A program made the translations under genes and the position numbers. The notes below the pieces were generated by a model that did not search any database, was not told the origin of the DNA, and worked only from the letters and a program-made list of their open reading frames with translations. From positions 186,001-250,000 of the forward strand of contig RAZE01000002.1 of assembly GCA_003611955.1 (NCBI GenBank): DNA of 64,000 nt, in the 5' to 3' direction. Source of the stretch: a bacterium 1XD8-76 (GTDB lineage: Bacteria > Bacillota > Clostridia > Lachnospirales > Lachnospiraceae). Positions 7,842-14,953 of the stretch are shown here, one piece after another; the stretch's first letter is position 1; every line of letters starts with the position of its first letter.

Positions 7842-9152
7842 TCACTGTGTTAGAACCGCATCCAGCAATAGCCCGCAATTTCTGTCCCCTTCTAACCGAA
7901 ATGTGACAAACTGCGCGTCACTGACATCAATGTCAAGTACCGTCTCCACGGTGGAACGGCTCAATTTTTCTTTTAGGTACGGCTCGTCCGTGTTCTCATC
8001 GAGATAAATGAGCAGTGTAAATTCCGTGCCGGATTCGGTTCCCTCAGTGGGAACACTGTAGAAACCGGTGAAATGGTTGAAGTCACCGACGTTGTAACGG
8101 ACATAGGCGGAATTCCAGCCGAACAGAAGGACCGCCTTCTGATAGGTGTCGCCCATGGTGTTTGCGACGTCCTCCGCGATGCTGAAATTCTGATATTCCA
8201 CCGGTTCCTGGATAGAAACGAGCTTCAAATCTTCCGTGGGCTCTTCCTCTTCGGTCTCCTCCGCCTCGTTTTCCTCCGCTGCAGGCATTTGCATTTCTTC
8301 GGTCTCCTGCTCCTGTTCGGTCCGTGCAGAGGCTTCCGCGTCGTCCTCTTTTTTATCCCCGGAAAAGAGAACGGTTATCTTCGGGATAAAGATCAGTGCG
8401 AGGATCAGGACGATCACCGCCCCGGCTCCGCTCAGGATCAGTTTGGGGTTTACCCCGCCTTTGCGGCGGTTTGGTTTTGAGCGTTTTATTTTCGCTCCCG
8501 GTTTGTACAGGGGAGAGGAATCCTTTCCCGACAGAATAGAGACAATGGGATTCTTTCCCTTTTCATGGCATTTTTCCAGCTCCGGCGCCTCGTAGATGCG
8601 GGAATACATCTGGGTCAACGACTGGTATTTGTAGCAGTGGATCGCCTGGATCCGGCTCTGGCGCAGCTCCATGCCGCCGTTTAAGCTGACATCCTCCAGA
8701 TAGAGCAGAAGGCGCTTGGGAGCGGGATTCAGATCCCTGGCGTAGTTCATCTCGTCCTTGCAGTTTTCCGACTGCAGGTAACTGCGGCTTAAGAACGCGA
8801 AGAAGTAACGGCATTTCTGAATGGCGTCGGCGATGGACTGATCCCACTCCGTGCCGGGATCTATGCCGTCGTCGTACCAGACGCGGAATCCGTCCTCCTG
8901 CAATTTTTTGATGATAGGGTATACTTTTTTGGCGTCAGCATGAGCGTAACTGATAAATATGTAAGGCTGATCGCCCTTGTACGGTGCGAACGGGTTGATA
9001 TCCTGCTTCAACTGAAATATGGCGGGGCTTATGGTGGGTACTTTTACCCTGGGCGGTATATTGGAAACGTCCTCCGGAATCGGGGCGCCGCACAAGTCAC
9101 AAAATCTGGAACCATCCTCCAGTGTGGCATGACACTTGGGGCATTCTAACAT
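7842..9152 (-). CDS. Zinc-ribbon / TIR-domain membrane protein
   Basis: A 436-residue protein in four parts. A zinc ribbon CPKCHATLEDG...CDLCG comes first (residues 4-22). A TIR domain follows (about 60-160) with YIFISYAHAD, the DGFRVWYDDGI loop and SENCKDEMNYA, whose Glu aligns with the catalytic glutamate of NADase TIRs. Then come a basic linker and one membrane helix (about 235-255), and finally a Glu-rich low-complexity stretch and an extracytoplasmic C-terminal domain of unknown fold. The start has AGGAGGAG upstream. TIR proteins in bacteria can deplete NAD+ in defence or act as signalling adaptors; the membrane-anchored architecture suggests a sensor outside and TIR inside. It is beside the integrase but has its own promoter. 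Confidence 0.82.
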   Translation of the reverse strand: MLECPKCHATLEDGSRFCDLCGAPIPEDVSNIPPRVKVPTISPAIFQLKQDINPFAPYKGDQPYIFISYAHADAKKVYPIIKKLQEDGFRVWYDDGIDPGTEWDQSIADAIQKCRYFFAFLSRSYLQSENCKDEMNYARDLNPAPKRLLLYLEDVSLNGGMELRQSRIQAIHCYKYQSLTQMYSRIYEAPELEKCHEKGKNPIVSILSGKDSSPLYKPGAKIKRSKPNRRKGGVNPKLILSGAGAVIVLILALIFIPKITVLFSGDKKEDDAEASARTEQEQETEEMQMPAAEENEAEETEEEEPTEDLKLVSIQEPVEYQNFSIAEDVANTMGDTYQKAVLLFGWNSAYVRYNVGDFNHFTGFYSVPTEGTESGTEFTLLIYLDENTDEPYLKEKLSRSTVETVLDIDVSDAQFVTFRLEGDRNCGLLLDAVLTQ

Positions 9153-9220: not shown

Positions 9221-9381
9221 TAAAAGCGATTCTTTGTAAATTAAGGAAATCTTAAATTTGCAAACTGTTGAAAAAAGTCCATAAAATGGAGAAATTGCCG
9301 TATATATCAGTGCCTCATGGCATTTTATGTTATGCTTAAATGGGAATAAATTTATTAAAATTCAGAACGGTTAGCAACAAG

Positions 9382-10503
9382 TTAGCGACAAATCTTATTA
9401 ATCTCTACCCTTAATTCCTCAACAGTCCGGTGCCCGTATTTCAGATCGGTAACATCGTTCCCCAAGGCATGTCCCATGAGCATTTTCTTGGACAGTGTGT
9501 CAACATGGTACTTATCACAGAGCCAGGAAAAAGTATGCCGGCAGTCATGCGGAGTGTGGCCGGTTATTCCGATCGCCGAAAGAGCATCGCTGAATTCTGC
9601 CCTGAATTTTGCTGGCGACAGGATAAAGAGCGGGTTATCTTTCCGGATAAAAGGAGTGATTTCCTTATTGAAAGGGACGATCCTGTTTTTACTGGTCTGG
9701 GTTTTCACGCCGCCGCGGAAATACTGGCTGTCAAAATTGATCTCCATTTTATGGTACGCAGATACACGGAAGCCGCTGTAAATCATAATGAGGACCGCCT
9801 GTAATATTTCATTTTCGCCAGCACATTCCCAGATTTGAGATAGTTCTTCCTCGGTAAAGGGAACTCCTTTTTCGTCGTCATCGGGCGTGTTAATCCTTAC
9901 GTGGTCCGCATAATTCCGGTCGCACAGGTCATGCGAATAGGCATAATCGTACATCTGCCTAAAAAGGTTTTTGATGTGTTCCTTTGTTGCATGCTTTTTT
10001 TCACAGTTGTCTATCACCTTCTGAAGATCCTCTGTCCTGAGTTCACGAAATGGCCTGTCATGCAATGTCTGGGAGTGTTTATATGCGGATTTGATCGCAT
10101 AGACAGAGGATTTTGAATAGTTTCTGGTCTTGTCACGCTCATATTTATAGGAAAAATATTCCTCGTATACTTCTGAAAAGGTTTTGTATGTAGCGGCCAG
10201 GCGGGTGTTGTTATTGTAGGAAGCGATAATTTTGGCTATAACATCATTCTGGCGGTCAGACGGCTTTATTTCAGTAGACAGAAAATCCTCAGCATCAAAT
10301 GTCCCATCTTTATATTTCATAAGTGCGTAGAAGCCCGTATACCAGTCTGGGACATAGCACAGGGCCTGGGGCATAATGGGCGATCCGTTTGCATTGAATT
10401 CTGTGACCGGGGGATATACGCCGTATGGGTTAGTACGTTTCCCACTCAGCTTTTTGATGCTGCCAAAACCGTTGGGGAGTTTGGGATGTTTTTTCTTTGC
10501 CAT
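9382..10503 (-). CDS. int: Phage tyrosine integrase
   Basis: A 373-residue tyrosine recombinase that would integrate and excise the prophage. The N-terminal arm-type and core-binding region precedes a catalytic domain with Arg in YSGFRVSAY, Lys in TSKNRIVPF, HDCRH, GHALG and the nucleophile in LKYGHR near the C-terminus. The start has AAGGAGG 7 bp upstream. It is transcribed outward toward the host boundary, as expected for an integrase at the left end, and a 16-bp palindrome lies upstream of it. Confidence 0.92.
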   Translation of the reverse strand: MAKKKHPKLPNGFGSIKKLSGKRTNPYGVYPPVTEFNANGSPIMPQALCYVPDWYTGFYALMKYKDGTFDAEDFLSTEIKPSDRQNDVIAKIIASYNNNTRLAATYKTFSEVYEEYFSYKYERDKTRNYSKSSVYAIKSAYKHSQTLHDRPFRELRTEDLQKVIDNCEKKHATKEHIKNLFRQMYDYAYSHDLCDRNYADHVRINTPDDDEKGVPFTEEELSQIWECAGENEILQAVLIMIYSGFRVSAYHKMEINFDSQYFRGGVKTQTSKNRIVPFNKEITPFIRKDNPLFILSPAKFRAEFSDALSAIGITGHTPHDCRHTFSWLCDKYHVDTLSKKMLMGHALGNDVTDLKYGHRTVEELRVEINKICR

Positions 10504-10893: not shown

Positions 10894-11481
10894 TCATTTT
10901 GTCAATAGAGCAGCATTTGCAGTATAAAGATGGATTTGATCCATAGTTGAGAAATCACTATCATCCGAAATGACATTTAACTTATTTTCTTTTATGCAGT
11001 TTTGTAGAATTGCATAATCAAATGTATCACAACGGTGATTCTGAAGATTATTTACAAATTGTTCCAGAGTGTTATATGTAAAATTAAAATCAAGAATCGT
11101 ACATATATTTCTAACATTAGATAATGCTGTGGATAGATTCCTTTTCATTTGATTCCGTTCATGTGGTATTTTACGGAAGTCCTTAATTGACCAGTTTGCT
11201 TCAGGATGATTTAACTCATATAAAGCGAATTCATTCTTTTCAATTACATGAAGCATTTCTGTAATATTGTAAACAGAAGTATAGAGCGGGTTACCATCAG
11301 AAACTAATTTATCTACAAAATCAAAGTATGGAGTAGCCCGCTGTTTGTCATGTGGTTTTGATACATTCGTAAATCTAGGATAAGAATACCAATATAAAAC
11401 GTTGGTATCTAAAAAGAATTCTTTTTTATTATTTATGGAAGCAAATGTTGTCAGATCCGTAATAGATGCACACTGCATCAT
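10894..11481 (-). CDS. PIN-domain nuclease, last gene of the STAS/HATPase trio
   Basis: A 195-residue PIN-like protein, a fold that cuts RNA (or structured DNA) using a cluster of acidic residues. Candidate metal ligands are the Asp of FFLDTNVLYW near residue 24, Glu in YNITEMLH, Asp in CDTFDYAIL and the Asp pair in VISDDSDF. Its start overlaps the STAS-like gene's stop by 4 bp, so the two are translationally coupled. It is AT-rich compared with the phage genes around it. As the only visible effector enzyme of the trio it would be the toxic output, but no antitoxin of the usual VapB type is present. Confidence 0.78.
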   Translation of the reverse strand: MMQCASITDLTTFASINNKKEFFLDTNVLYWYSYPRFTNVSKPHDKQRATPYFDFVDKLVSDGNPLYTSVYNITEMLHVIEKNEFALYELNHPEANWSIKDFRKIPHERNQMKRNLSTALSNVRNICTILDFNFTYNTLEQFVNNLQNHRCDTFDYAILQNCIKENKLNVISDDSDFSTMDQIHLYTANAALLTK

Positions 11482-11831
11482 AAAATCACCTTCTTTGGTG
11501 TATTATCAATAATATTATTGATTTTGGTGATGTTTTCTGGATGCTGTGATACCATCTCCGCATTCTCGATTGAAGTCTGAAAAGTATCTGATCCAACTGG
11601 ACTTATGTTTTTGATTTGTATAGCACGTATAGTATCAAAACCATAAACAAGTGCCAGGGCAGCGAAGCTGTAATTAAAAAAAGGAGATGCAAAACGAGTG
11701 ATCCCATTGAAATCAACGACTATATTGTTTGCATGTGAAGACAATAATTTTTCCAGATGTTCTTTTAATACAAGCCCTTTTGTTTTGGATGCAGCTTCAT
11801 TAGTAATGTTTGAAACAATTATAGTATTCAA
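11478..11831 (-). CDS. STAS-like protein (DUF4325-type)
   Basis: A 117-residue protein with the STAS-like core NIVVDFNGITRFASPFFNYS: a beta-strand ending in Asp, then a Ser-containing helix start, the position phosphorylated in SpoIIAA-type anti-sigma antagonists. It overlaps both neighbours by 4 bp (HATPase gene upstream, PIN gene downstream). By analogy with partner switching it could be the phospho-substrate of the adjacent HATPase and could gate the PIN protein. That pathway is inference from gene order and fold. Confidence 0.7.
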   Translation of the reverse strand: MNTIIVSNITNEAASKTKGLVLKEHLEKLLSSHANNIVVDFNGITRFASPFFNYSFAALALVYGFDTIRAIQIKNISPVGSDTFQTSIENAEMVSQHPENITKINNIIDNTPKKVIL

Positions 11832-12688
11832 GATTGCTCCTCCTTTAAGATATAAATATGTTCTCTATCTGCAGTAATAATGACTGTAATCAGAGTGCCG
11901 AGTACGTCATATGGCAAACGAACTTCTTCTCTGTTTTTAGAATGATTATAGTATACATCATTAGAAAAAATAATCAAAGAGCCATTGTTTAATTCGGTAA
12001 AATCTTTTAGGTCTGCCATACCGAGCCCGCGAGGTGCTCCATCTGTCATTTGTTTTGTAGAATTTCCACGTTGTAGTGCCCATTTTATGGCGTCTATAGA
12101 AGTCATGCTGGAATTTTGCTGTTTTACTAACCGAGGGATGCCGGTTCCTGTATCACATACAGAAAAGATTAATTGATTTTTATTCGGCATCCAGTGTCCA
12201 CAAGCAAATACCCCGCAAGAAGAGTTGGAATGATCGGTTGCATTATTGAATATCTCATAAATATTCTTGAAAAGCGAATCCCTGCAGTCAGGGCTTAATG
12301 TAATCGGAGCTAAATCTAAGATGTTATCTATATAATTTATAAGATTGCAATCATCAAGGTTTACTTTTGTGAATGGTATTGAATTAGGGTTTGTATAATT
12401 ATATTTATTGCCAGAATAGTAATTATAGAAACCTGAATTTTTAAAATAGTTCATAACTTTTATATTATGCGGAGAACGAATATTGACACTTTTTCCCCAC
12501 TTTTTGGCCATAGCCATTAATGCACCAAAATATGCAGTAAAAGCAGGGGCTAAAAATTGGCAGTCTTGAAAATCCAAGACAATAAGAGGTTCTTTGCATG
12601 CATATATTTCATATTGAAGTTTAGCCAAGAATTGGTATGATCTTTCAATTATATTTAATTTATTCGGTATGGTAATTATCTTTTCCAT
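11828..12688 (-). CDS. STAS-HATPase fusion protein (GHKL ATPase, anti-sigma-kinase-like)
   Basis: A 286-residue protein. The N-terminal third is STAS-like (LIVLDFQDCQFLAPAFTAYF). The C-terminal part is a GHKL ATPase fold with an N-box (YEIFNNATDHS), G1 (VCDTGTGIP) and a G2-like GLGMADL. No histidine-kinase dimerisation domain or His box is seen, so it resembles SpoIIAB/RsbW-type kinases more than a sensor kinase. The ribosome site upstream of 12688 is weak and AT-rich. It is the first of three genes joined by ATGA overlaps. Low GC and position behind the repressor suggest an acquired lysogenic-conversion module. Confidence 0.75.
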   Translation of the reverse strand: MEKIITIPNKLNIIERSYQFLAKLQYEIYACKEPLIVLDFQDCQFLAPAFTAYFGALMAMAKKWGKSVNIRSPHNIKVMNYFKNSGFYNYYSGNKYNYTNPNSIPFTKVNLDDCNLINYIDNILDLAPITLSPDCRDSLFKNIYEIFNNATDHSNSSCGVFACGHWMPNKNQLIFSVCDTGTGIPRLVKQQNSSMTSIDAIKWALQRGNSTKQMTDGAPRGLGMADLKDFTELNNGSLIIFSNDVYYNHSKNREEVRLPYDVLGTLITVIITADREHIYILKEEQS

Positions 12689-12746: not shown

Positions 12747-14084
12747 TTATTGATTTTTGCTTCCGTTCAAATTCTCGCGCATCTTCTCACTGATACGATA
12801 TTGTTCAGCATCCGGAGTATCGATAAATTCAACAGTCTTGTCAAAGTTATTTTTGGATGACGTCTTTGCTAAATACAATTTATTTGTTTTTCCAGATTTT
12901 TCTTTTTTTATTTGAAGGCTACATCTGAGAAAATGTTTTAAAACTTCCCGATCATCTTCGGTTACATGGAGGGCGTCATACATTTTATTTTGCAGACATC
13001 CAGGATTATCTTTTATATAGGAGAGAGCAAGGGTTGCAATTCTTTTATAATCAGTATAGTATGACCGTATTTCATTATCATTGTCAGGATAATAGGCATT
13101 TGCATCTGAGCAAATTTGGATAACCCTCTCGACATCATCCCATTTTCCGAGACGCATATACATTTCAGGACCAATATCACGGCAGTTAATGACAGGCGGC
13201 AATTCTCCATCATCTTCTTCCAGACAGAATCTGCAAAATTCTTTCAAAAGAGGGTATGACTCTTCACATGCCTGTATTTTAGCTTCAATATCTTTACTTG
13301 AATCAATCAAAGAAGATAGTTCATAAAACTTACCGATAAATTCATCTGGACCCACATGATAATCATAAGATTTATTATCATAAATCGTGAGAGTTTGGAC
13401 AGTATGATTTGTGGAATCTATTTGTGTGTATGTTTGAGGAACATATTTAGAAGCATAAATATCGTATTGTTCAATTAAGAAATTCTTATTTTCTGGTGGA
13501 AGAAGCATATTATTTTCGTACATCTTCCGAAAAGTATTTAAATGTTTTACTTTTAATTCATTTTTGGTAACTGAATTTATTTCATGTTCTAAATTTCTGG
13601 TTATTGCTTGATTTAATATTTCAGTTTTATTGTCTTGTAATTTACGCAAGGTACTCTGTACGGGCTGTTTTAAACGAAAACCTAAACTATTTAAATCATT
13701 TTCAGTATATGTGGAGAGTTTATTGAGTGAATCAATAGCCATATCGTATCTGCGTAATACGACACCAAGGTTATTAGAGCTATTTATGAGATTTATGCTG
13801 TCAGTTAAAATATCTATTGATCTTTTGACCTGTTCCTTTTTGATGAAAAGATTTTGCGCCTGCTCATGAGATGTTTGAATACTTTTATCCCTCTGAGAGT
13901 CTTGCATGATATTACCATCTTGAGATGCTTTATGTTTGCTATACAAATAAAGGATGCCTAAAACAAGAAGAATTGCACCGATTATTATGATTACAGTGAA
14001 ATATTCGCTTATTATTCCCAACAGTATCAGGGCCGCGATAATACCTGATATAGAGAAGCCTTTTTTCTTTTTGTTTTTTGCCAT
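12747..14084 (-). CDS. Two-TM membrane protein of unknown function in the lysogenic operon
   Basis: 445 residues: a lysine-rich N-terminus, a hydrophobic region of two membrane helices (about 10-48), then a long soluble, probably helical cytoplasmic domain. Near the C-terminus a segment NPGCLQNKMYDALHVTEDDR resembles a winged-helix. I do not recognise the family. The start has GGAG 7 bp upstream. It lies between the repressor/ImmA-like pair and the STAS-HATPase trio on the same strand, so it is probably co-expressed in lysogens. A role in superinfection exclusion or as membrane partner of the trio is possible but unproven. Confidence 0.6.
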   Translation of the reverse strand: MAKNKKKKGFSISGIIAALILLGIISEYFTVIIIIGAILLVLGILYLYSKHKASQDGNIMQDSQRDKSIQTSHEQAQNLFIKKEQVKRSIDILTDSINLINSSNNLGVVLRRYDMAIDSLNKLSTYTENDLNSLGFRLKQPVQSTLRKLQDNKTEILNQAITRNLEHEINSVTKNELKVKHLNTFRKMYENNMLLPPENKNFLIEQYDIYASKYVPQTYTQIDSTNHTVQTLTIYDNKSYDYHVGPDEFIGKFYELSSLIDSSKDIEAKIQACEESYPLLKEFCRFCLEEDDGELPPVINCRDIGPEMYMRLGKWDDVERVIQICSDANAYYPDNDNEIRSYYTDYKRIATLALSYIKDNPGCLQNKMYDALHVTEDDREVLKHFLRCSLQIKKEKSGKTNKLYLAKTSSKNNFDKTVEFIDTPDAEQYRISEKMRENLNGSKNQ

Positions 14085-14121: not shown

Positions 14122-14538
14122 CTACATATCTTCGCTATATAGCCATTTAGACTCTATATGTCTAAAGTAAAGCTCAGGCCCATAAAGTTCCATCATGATT
14201 GCTGCTTCCTTTTCTTTTTCCCTTAGAGCCTTCTGAATCTTTTTACGCTTCTTTTTGGATTGTTTAATTCGTTCTTCGTATATGTTTACTGGTGCAGGAA
14301 TAAAGTCCTCAGGCACTTTGAGCCCGTGAGCTTGCGACTCAATGCTCTGTACATCCGATTTTTCAAAGTCCCCGCTGTCAATATGTTTTAAGGCGTGCTC
14401 GTAAGCTTCAACCTGTCCGTCTTGGGATAATTTTGCGTTGATCAAGACAGTGTAGGAGCCATCTTCATTTTGCACCACCATTTCTTTTCCCGGGGACGGA
14501 AAATTAACCAGAAAGGTATTAACATCCGGTGTCGTCAC
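14122..14538 (-). CDS. ImmA-like protein without a canonical HExxH motif
   Basis: 138 residues downstream of, and overlapping, the repressor gene, the place ImmA/IrrE metalloproteases occupy in ImmR-ImmA phage switches. The segment AYEHALKHIDSGDF resembles the ImmA helix, but the HExxH zinc motif is degraded to HALKH, so proteolysis is doubtful. A Lys-rich coiled coil follows (about 93-110). It may bind or modulate the repressor rather than cleave it. This family assignment is from memory and moderate. Confidence 0.5.
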   Translation of the reverse strand: MTTPDVNTFLVNFPSPGKEMVVQNEDGSYTVLINAKLSQDGQVEAYEHALKHIDSGDFEKSDVQSIESQAHGLKVPEDFIPAPVNIYEERIKQSKKKRKKIQKALREKEKEAAIMMELYGPELYFRHIESKWLYSEDM

Positions 14539-14953
14539 TGTTTCCGCGCTCCTTTCTCTTTAAGGCTAGAGCCATGTTATGTAATGCTTTCAGGTCTTCC
14601 GGGTCAGCATCCCTAGTAGCATCGAACAGCATCCGGAGTTCTTTGTTCTCGAAGATTTCCTGCGCCGCTTTAGCAGTTTCTTCATTAATATAATATCCAT
14701 TATCAGATTCAAGGTGACTGCTATCATTGTTTCTTGAATCATGTCCTTCCAAATCTTCTCTACCAATTAAATAATCGAGAGAAATATCAAAATAATCGCA
14801 AATCTGTTTTTTGATTTCGTCATTTGGAGTACTCTTTCCGCTTTCATATAAGGAAACAGTAGATTTTACAATTCCAAATTTTTCTCCGAATTCGGTTTGA
14901 GTCATATTTGCTGATAAGCGAAGACTTTTTATTCTGTCTGCTAGATTTGCCAT
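14519..14953 (-). CDS. Phage repressor, XRE-family HTH
   Basis: A 144-residue protein with a cI/ImmR-type helix-turn-helix (MTQTEFGEKFGIVKSTVSLY, about 19-38) and an acidic C-terminal helical domain. It has no RecA-dependent LexA-like peptidase domain. It is divergent from the Cro-like gene across a 180-bp control region with repeated GTTGAAG elements, so it is the likely lysogeny repressor. The start has GAGGGA upstream, and its 3' end overlaps the ImmA-like gene by 20 bp. Confidence 0.85.
   Translation of the reverse strand: MANLADRIKSLRLSANMTQTEFGEKFGIVKSTVSLYESGKSTPNDEIKKQICDYFDISLDYLIGREDLEGHDSRNNDSSHLESDNGYYINEETAKAAQEIFENKELRMLFDATRDADPEDLKALHNMALALKRKERGNSDDTGC

Follow-up and report, generated by a model that had tools for sequence, protein, structure and literature searches.

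The window, the whole 64,000-nucleotide stretch of DNA analysed here, carries on its minus strand three intact reading frames that encode a STAS-GHKL kinase, a STAS protein and a PIN nuclease (Table 1). This kinase-STAS-PIN order (K-S-C) is the one required of a VapKSC system. The genes overlap by 4 bp at both junctions (vapK/vapS at 11828-11831, vapS/vapC at 11478-11481), as the original prediction had it, and the TTG start codon of vapS is preceded by AGGAGG. The overlaps, direction and spacing suggest that the three genes form one operon. The trio may also be co-transcribed with the repressor upstream; promoter and terminator scans returned sites no more numerous than in shuffled sequence. 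The AT-richness first noticed by inspection was borne out, the GC content of the trio being 32.8% against a mean of 44.9% and a minimum of 37.1% in 237 overlapping windows of the same size (15000-64000).

Table 1. Features of the vapKSC locus and its surroundings (window coordinates)
Feature	Coordinates	Strand	Description
vapK	11828..12688	minus	286 aa, STAS (residues 1-92) and GHKL/SpoIIAB-like kinase (about 100-280)
vapS	11478..11831	minus	117 aa, stand-alone STAS-like (DUF4325), putative antitoxin
vapC	10894..11481	minus	195 aa, PIN domain, predicted RNase toxin
Phage tyrosine integrase	9382..10503	minus	next gene downstream of vapC, 390 bp off; outside module
Phage HTH repressor	14519..14953	minus	heads leftward gene run containing vapKSC; outside module
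445-aa protein gene	12747..14084	minus	upstream of vapK, N-terminus hydrophobic, no family above cut-off
Candidate attachment-site core	9369..9393	.	25-bp repeat, 92% copy at window coordinate 67684-67708 (G000:C22:253684-253708)

In Pfam searches, VapS scored over the family cut-off (DUF4325, E=8e-8), the PIN match of VapC fell slightly under it (E=1.6e-4) and the HATPase_c match of VapK lay under it as well (E=7.1e-5). VapK contains an N-box (E145/N149) and the G1 (D179-x-G181-x-G183) and G2 (G221-x-G223) motifs, together with F45, a putative ssDNA-stacking residue. Its AlphaFold model, built on 57 aligned sequences from the window and the loci, has a mean pLDDT of 93.4 and consists of a STAS domain and a SpoIIAB-like kinase. 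Residues 1-92 of the model resemble STAS proteins (1vc1, Z 12.3, rmsd 1.6 over 90; RsbV 6m36, Z 11.4) whereas residues 100-276 come closest to SpoIIAB, an anti-sigma kinase (1til, Z 12.9, rmsd 2.8 over 134). PADLOC gave VapK a weak match to DrmA (E=1.6e-6) that spans about 180 of 1750 positions and that we attribute to an ATPase-like region common to both. In VapS, S49 is the putative phospho-acceptor (S48 in Escherichia) and the C-terminal tail comprises about 23 aa. The acidic residues of VapC are D25, E75, D152, D155, D174 and D176. The model of this protein (pLDDT 94.1) has the PIN fold and matches VapC and FitB structures in a fold search; PDB 9z7o was absent among the 50 matches listed, from a structure library reaching up to April 2026.

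The trio had been placed behind the repressor of a prophage, and it does lie between the repressor and the integrase. The 25-bp repeat pair suggests the ends of a prophage of about 58 kb enclosing the trio, and IMG/VR holds a 57,464-bp virus beginning at the integrase stop codon (a position derived from the IMG/VR range). These candidate ends would therefore put vapKSC inside the lysogeny region. Two genes in the same direction, encoding proteins of 138 aa and 445 aa, separate the repressor from vapK. We weighed whether the 445-aa gene might belong to the module as its fourth gene and set this aside, since short parts of its product also occur in L124 and L125, two viral contigs retrieved independently of vapK. 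A counterpart of its C-terminal part is encoded upstream of vapK in L035, another vapKSC prophage (38% over 161 aa). Just beyond the candidate prophage end, the minus strand encodes a zinc-ribbon and TIR-domain protein (7842-9152; TIR_2 E=1.1e-22); TIR proteins are frequent in defence. To the right of the prophage (G000:C22:253844-259782; window coordinates 67844-73782), genes recognised by eye resemble those for a sensor kinase and a response regulator, a membrane racemase and a D-Ala-type ligase; together they recall vanG-type clusters.

The original statement that no system of this make-up had been described was overtaken in June 2026, when Chambers et al. named the trio vapKSC (EMBO J, 9 June 2026; PMC13373217). 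According to the main text of that paper, the kinase VapK of Escherichia phosphorylates VapS, which then frees the RNase VapC (PMC13373217). VapC is toxic and is neutralised by VapS; VapS no longer neutralises it when mutated to S48E or deprived of its tail, and VapC D28A, VapS S48A or VapK F54A each abolish phage protection (PMC13373217). The crystal structure of VapSC is PDB 9z7o (PMC13373217). The ssDNA trigger was shown for CapK; for VapK, which was insoluble in that study, activation by ssDNA is a prediction drawn from the analogy with CapK and an AlphaFold model (PMC13373217).

The window proteins match this system. With phmmer against PDB sequences, the best match of the PIN protein was 9z7o_C, 'Escherichia VapC' (E=1.3e-16), and that of the STAS protein was 9z7o_A, 'Escherichia VapS' (E=1.9e-7). 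Identity to the E. coli trio is 31% for VapK (87/279), 24% for VapS (27/114) and 23% for VapC (43/189). In these alignments, D25 of window VapC falls on D28, S49 of VapS on S48, and F45 of VapK on F49 of the E. coli protein as annotated. Residue F49 becomes F54 when E. coli VapK is started at an in-frame ATG five codons upstream, and the match of F45 to F54 depends on that start; the correspondence of F54 to CapK W68 is that given in the source paper (PMC13373217). The trio was present in two of 5426 E. coli genomes (found with Rahnella DNA), and one of the two strains encodes a VapC and a VapS that are nearly the same as those crystallised (E=3.8e-122 and 3.7e-68). The window trio thus shares genes, order, domains and key residues with VapKSC, as well as homology in VapS and VapC; it differs by an identity of only 23-31% and by its lysogeny-region site in a gut Lachnospiraceae-type prophage. 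Judged by homology, it is a divergent VapKSC member, and the activity of this copy is predicted.

In a VapK tree of 80 rows, from which the short VapK rows L095 and L107 were excluded, the window sits in a seven-member clade of Lachnospiraceae and viral contigs with a support of 100/100. In five of the seven members, an integrase lies about 0.5 kb or less downstream of vapC, the gap being 390 bp in the window, 45 in L035, 399 in L036, about 481 in L033 and 227 in L117. Upstream lies a phage-type regulator in the window, L035 and L036; in L117 the upstream side shows a phage metallo-protease and a weak match to HTH. L033 has an HTH reading frame between vapC and the integrase domain. Of the two remaining members, L037 lacks an integrase in its flanks, and the sequence of L038 breaks off within vapC.

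Carriage of the trio extends to other phage sequences. Of the ten distinct IMG/VR contigs that VapK or VapC brought up, nine contain it (the window's own, L033, L117, the twin of Streptococcus phage Javan172, L118, L120, L031, L028 and L034), and the tenth, L030, stops after vapK. L118 is identical to a Paraliobacillus genome locus, L031 carries a terminase and a tape measure gene, L028 a serine integrase and L034 a Zot-like protein; Zot-like proteins are a filamentous-phage feature. In Javan172 itself, the order is regulator, hypothetical gene, vapK, vapS, vapC and integrase, with a VapK 26% identical to that of the window and a VapC detected solely by profile. GenBank marks only a 120-bp hypothetical gene inside Javan172 vapC (L002 5248-5778), which lies between vapS and the integrase. 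The trio also occurs in the human faecal phage contig L003 and on a Deinococcus gobiensis plasmid. E. coli JNE25-001 carries a near-identical VapSC relative at the end of a P2-like prophage, adjoining mntR (L121/L122, record 952357-984054), so that the experimentally studied Escherichia type of vapKSC is found in a phage too. Several unrelated temperate phages thus carry vapKSC, one clade right at the integrase. Given its carriage by several separate phages and prophages, vapKSC seems to have filled the slot between regulator and integrase more than once.

Phage carriage is one habitat of vapKSC and not the rule, because home-made profiles detect no recombinase at 70 of the 81 trio loci, in flanks of at most 7 kb that are often ended by a contig edge. 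The complementary count of 11/81 is a rough one without a control and includes a weak match (L055) and a resolvase-size protein (L003). The clustering in prophages that the original prediction envisaged therefore holds for the window's clade and fails for most trio loci. As to defence islands, 103 of 289 vapKSC loci (36%) are reported to lie within 10 kb of another immune gene (PMC13373217). The main text of that paper uses 'prophage' once (for CarolAnn) and 'integrase' never, a count that excludes its 289-locus dataset (PMC13373217). No report of phage carriage of vapKSC was found in the literature searched, which included this main text. Among the anti-phage literature matches listed, CapK occurred only in PMC13373217. 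The part of the DefensePredictor paper (PMC13092281) describing the PIN-nuclease defence systems DS-3 and DS-5 names no STAS protein. The available text of a Paenibacillus larvae prophage paper lists a STAS-like protein, the terms PIN domain and ATP-binding protein being absent from it, and none of the available passages of the eLife 2020 conflict-systems paper concerns this trio.

The system is scarce among relatives and in deposited phages. In the family, 299 genomes yielded three VapK matches, one in the window's own genome and two weak ones elsewhere; one of the latter (L007) has an adjoining STAS-like gene and no PIN gene within 3.4 kb. VapC was found in none of 40 relatives besides the window's own genome, eight of the 40 belonging to the same genus, and DUF4325 in 12 of 246 genomes of the order. 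In tblastn searches, window VapS and VapC had no match in deposited phages, nor had VapC any in plasmids. Javan172 VapC as query retrieved no second phage record and E. coli VapC no deposited phage; E. coli VapK retrieved the same phages as window VapK.

We consider it likely that the trio is a prophage-borne vapKSC, in which an ssDNA-triggered kinase frees the VapC RNase and so blocks an incoming phage. In the lysogen, VapS would keep the PIN RNase inactive in a complex. ssDNA that accumulates when another phage infects, or after DNA damage of another kind, would bind between the STAS and kinase domains of VapK, a trigger proposed by analogy with CapK and from modelling. VapK would then phosphorylate VapS at S49, VapS would release VapC, and VapC would cut RNA, so that growth stops and the incoming phage does not spread. 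The RNA target, every activity of the window copy and the benefit in this phage are predictions. Partner switching with an RNase as output, located in a moron slot, had been proposed at the outset; this idea has gained a homologue in Escherichia that works in this way (PMC13373217), and the residues kept in the window copy are consistent with it. The benefit to the prophage is most likely the protection of its lysogen from other phages. A difficulty lies in self-induction, as DNA damage that induces the prophage should also trigger VapC.

Any toxin with a co-encoded antitoxin can stabilise its carrier by addiction. The trio could accordingly serve prophage maintenance by killing cells that lose the prophage, with phage protection as a side effect; its site in the lysogeny region beside the integrase, the same slot that is used in Javan172, is in keeping with this. 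However, a kinase that actively breaks the complex would be superfluous to passive addiction, and phage protection by the Escherichia system depends on residue F54 of its kinase (PMC13373217). We regard maintenance as an unlikely primary function. A putative valve directed at the prophage itself is quite improbable too: ssDNA from its own induction would fire VapK and VapC, halting host translation for the phage or aborting an ill-timed induction. The proposed trigger of VapK, ssDNA or DNA damage, does also induce prophages, and the trio is read in the direction of the repressor, but growth arrest before lysis would normally hurt the phage's own burst.

Several known switches resemble the trio in part. 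CapK and CapS are a related pair that responds to DNA damage, and they share with the window a STAS-GHKL kinase and a STAS substrate with a conserved serine (PMC13373217). By that model, kinase and STAS protein would switch transcription, and the PIN gene would be no more than a neighbour under their control. However, CapK bears an N-terminal HTH, and CapS represses transcription and bears a C-terminal winged helix (PMC13373217). Neither domain was found on the window proteins with Pfam or, for VapK, with the model and fold search; window VapK begins with STAS at residue 1, and in VapS only about 39 aa remain beyond the DUF4325 match. Control of the CapKS type is thus very doubtful, and release of VapC by phosphorylated VapS is the reading we retain. 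SpoIIAB/SpoIIAA and RsbW/RsbV are alike in the kinase fold and, through RsbV, in the N-terminal STAS domain. In partner switches, a serine of the STAS partner is phosphorylated (PMC13373217). The SpoIIAB and RsbW switches act on a sigma factor, whereas there is no sigma factor within the trio and its predicted output is a PIN RNase. The window kinase, unlike SpoIIAB and RsbW, has a STAS domain of its own, in which Ala47 replaces the acceptor serine (aligned by eye). With VapBC, the trio has the PIN-domain toxin in common, in line with the fold matches to VapC and FitB. The antitoxin of VapBC is the DNA-binding VapB, whereas that of the window is a DUF4325/STAS protein under kinase control, on which Pfam and NCBIfam searches found no VapB-type family.

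STAS-GHKL kinase and DUF4325 pairs also occur in phage LYGO9 (L004 3902-5091), in Marinitoga phage MPV1 (L005 3908-5261) and in a Pasteurella plasmid record with phage genes (L026 3503-5149). No PIN gene or VapC was found behind any of the three, and a kinase-STAS pair alone therefore does not imply a PIN output. In the Pasteurella record, a third, overlapping gene encodes a 130-aa protein with a hydrophobic N-terminus. Francisella phage KIRK has a DUF4325 gene followed by one for a 125-aa membrane protein, and no PIN gene, in the portion of its description consulted (PMC7924643). Of these four, the kinase was seen in the LYGO9, MPV1 and Pasteurella records only. It is possible that such non-PIN third genes are swapped outputs of the same switch. 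The window's own genome encodes a second DUF4325 protein (L013 1465-2487, G000:C6), a single chain in which a clear DUF4325 at the C-terminus is combined with weak matches to a winged helix and to HATPase. Nostoc (L024) has a one-chain fusion of kinase and STAS as well, and profiles indicate others in L015 and L019.

A scan of a species-genome collection with the VapK alignment confirmed 102 relatives, of which the best 80 were examined as loci. The K-S-C order was found in 76 of these 80, which had been fetched with VapK alone; this proportion tilts to close relatives, and the S and C profiles were derived from the same loci. Of the four misses, three lie at contig ends (L039, L044, L088) and one locus is damaged (L098). 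Residues were compared in an alignment of 82 rows, the window plus 81 loci of genomic, viral-contig, phage and plasmid origin, in which L052, equal to L118, is entered twice. Ten duplicate loci had been removed beforehand: L001, L006, L022, L027, L032 and L115 (each equal to the window), L025 (L004), L029 (L002), L116 (L033) and L119 (L034). Five loci with all three genes, whose mechanical starts give overlaps of more than 120 bp (L057, L093, L101, L106, L110), stand outside this alignment and inside the count of 76/80.

The acidic residues of the PIN protein, proposed from the start as a check, are conserved: VapC D25 is present in 82/82 rows, E75 in 81/82 (one gap), and D152, D155 and D174 in all 79 non-gap rows each. 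At D176, 76 of 78 rows keep the aspartate and two have glutamate. The S49 column of VapS holds serine in 70 rows and threonine in 12, that is, one or the other in 82/82. In VapK, N149 is kept in 81/81 non-gap rows, and column 45 is aromatic in 79/82 (F 65, W 13, Y 1, I 1, gap 2). AT-rich islands in phages often carry short-lived cargo, and the AT-rich trio might on this ground be taken for unrelated neighbours or a decayed remnant, but with intact frames, key residues kept and genes that travel together in 76/80 loci (best 80 of 102), this explanation is extremely improbable.

Beyond the protection of the lysogen by a prophage-borne vapKSC, a broader reading can be offered, tentatively and with more doubt than belief. 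Here vapKSC would be a recurrent, repeatedly acquired lysogeny-region moron that gives the resident phage an ssDNA alarm, one that fires on a replicating intruder and is disarmed, or deliberately used, at the phage's own induction. Because vapKSC is read in the direction of the repressor, the supply of antitoxin and kinase would track the lysogenic state. If this is true, how a prophage carries a toxin triggered by DNA damage without aborting its own induction would become a new question of phage immunity.

With these results, the window trio, hitherto an unknown, can be assigned to a system whose crystal structure is available and whose mechanism has been tested in Escherichia. The window copy provides a distant test case in Bacillota, with 23-31% identity and the key residues kept. 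Of these results, it is the distribution in phages that may be new to a specialist. It makes testable whether a toxin triggered by DNA damage serves a prophage against its rivals, and how such a prophage survives its own induction.
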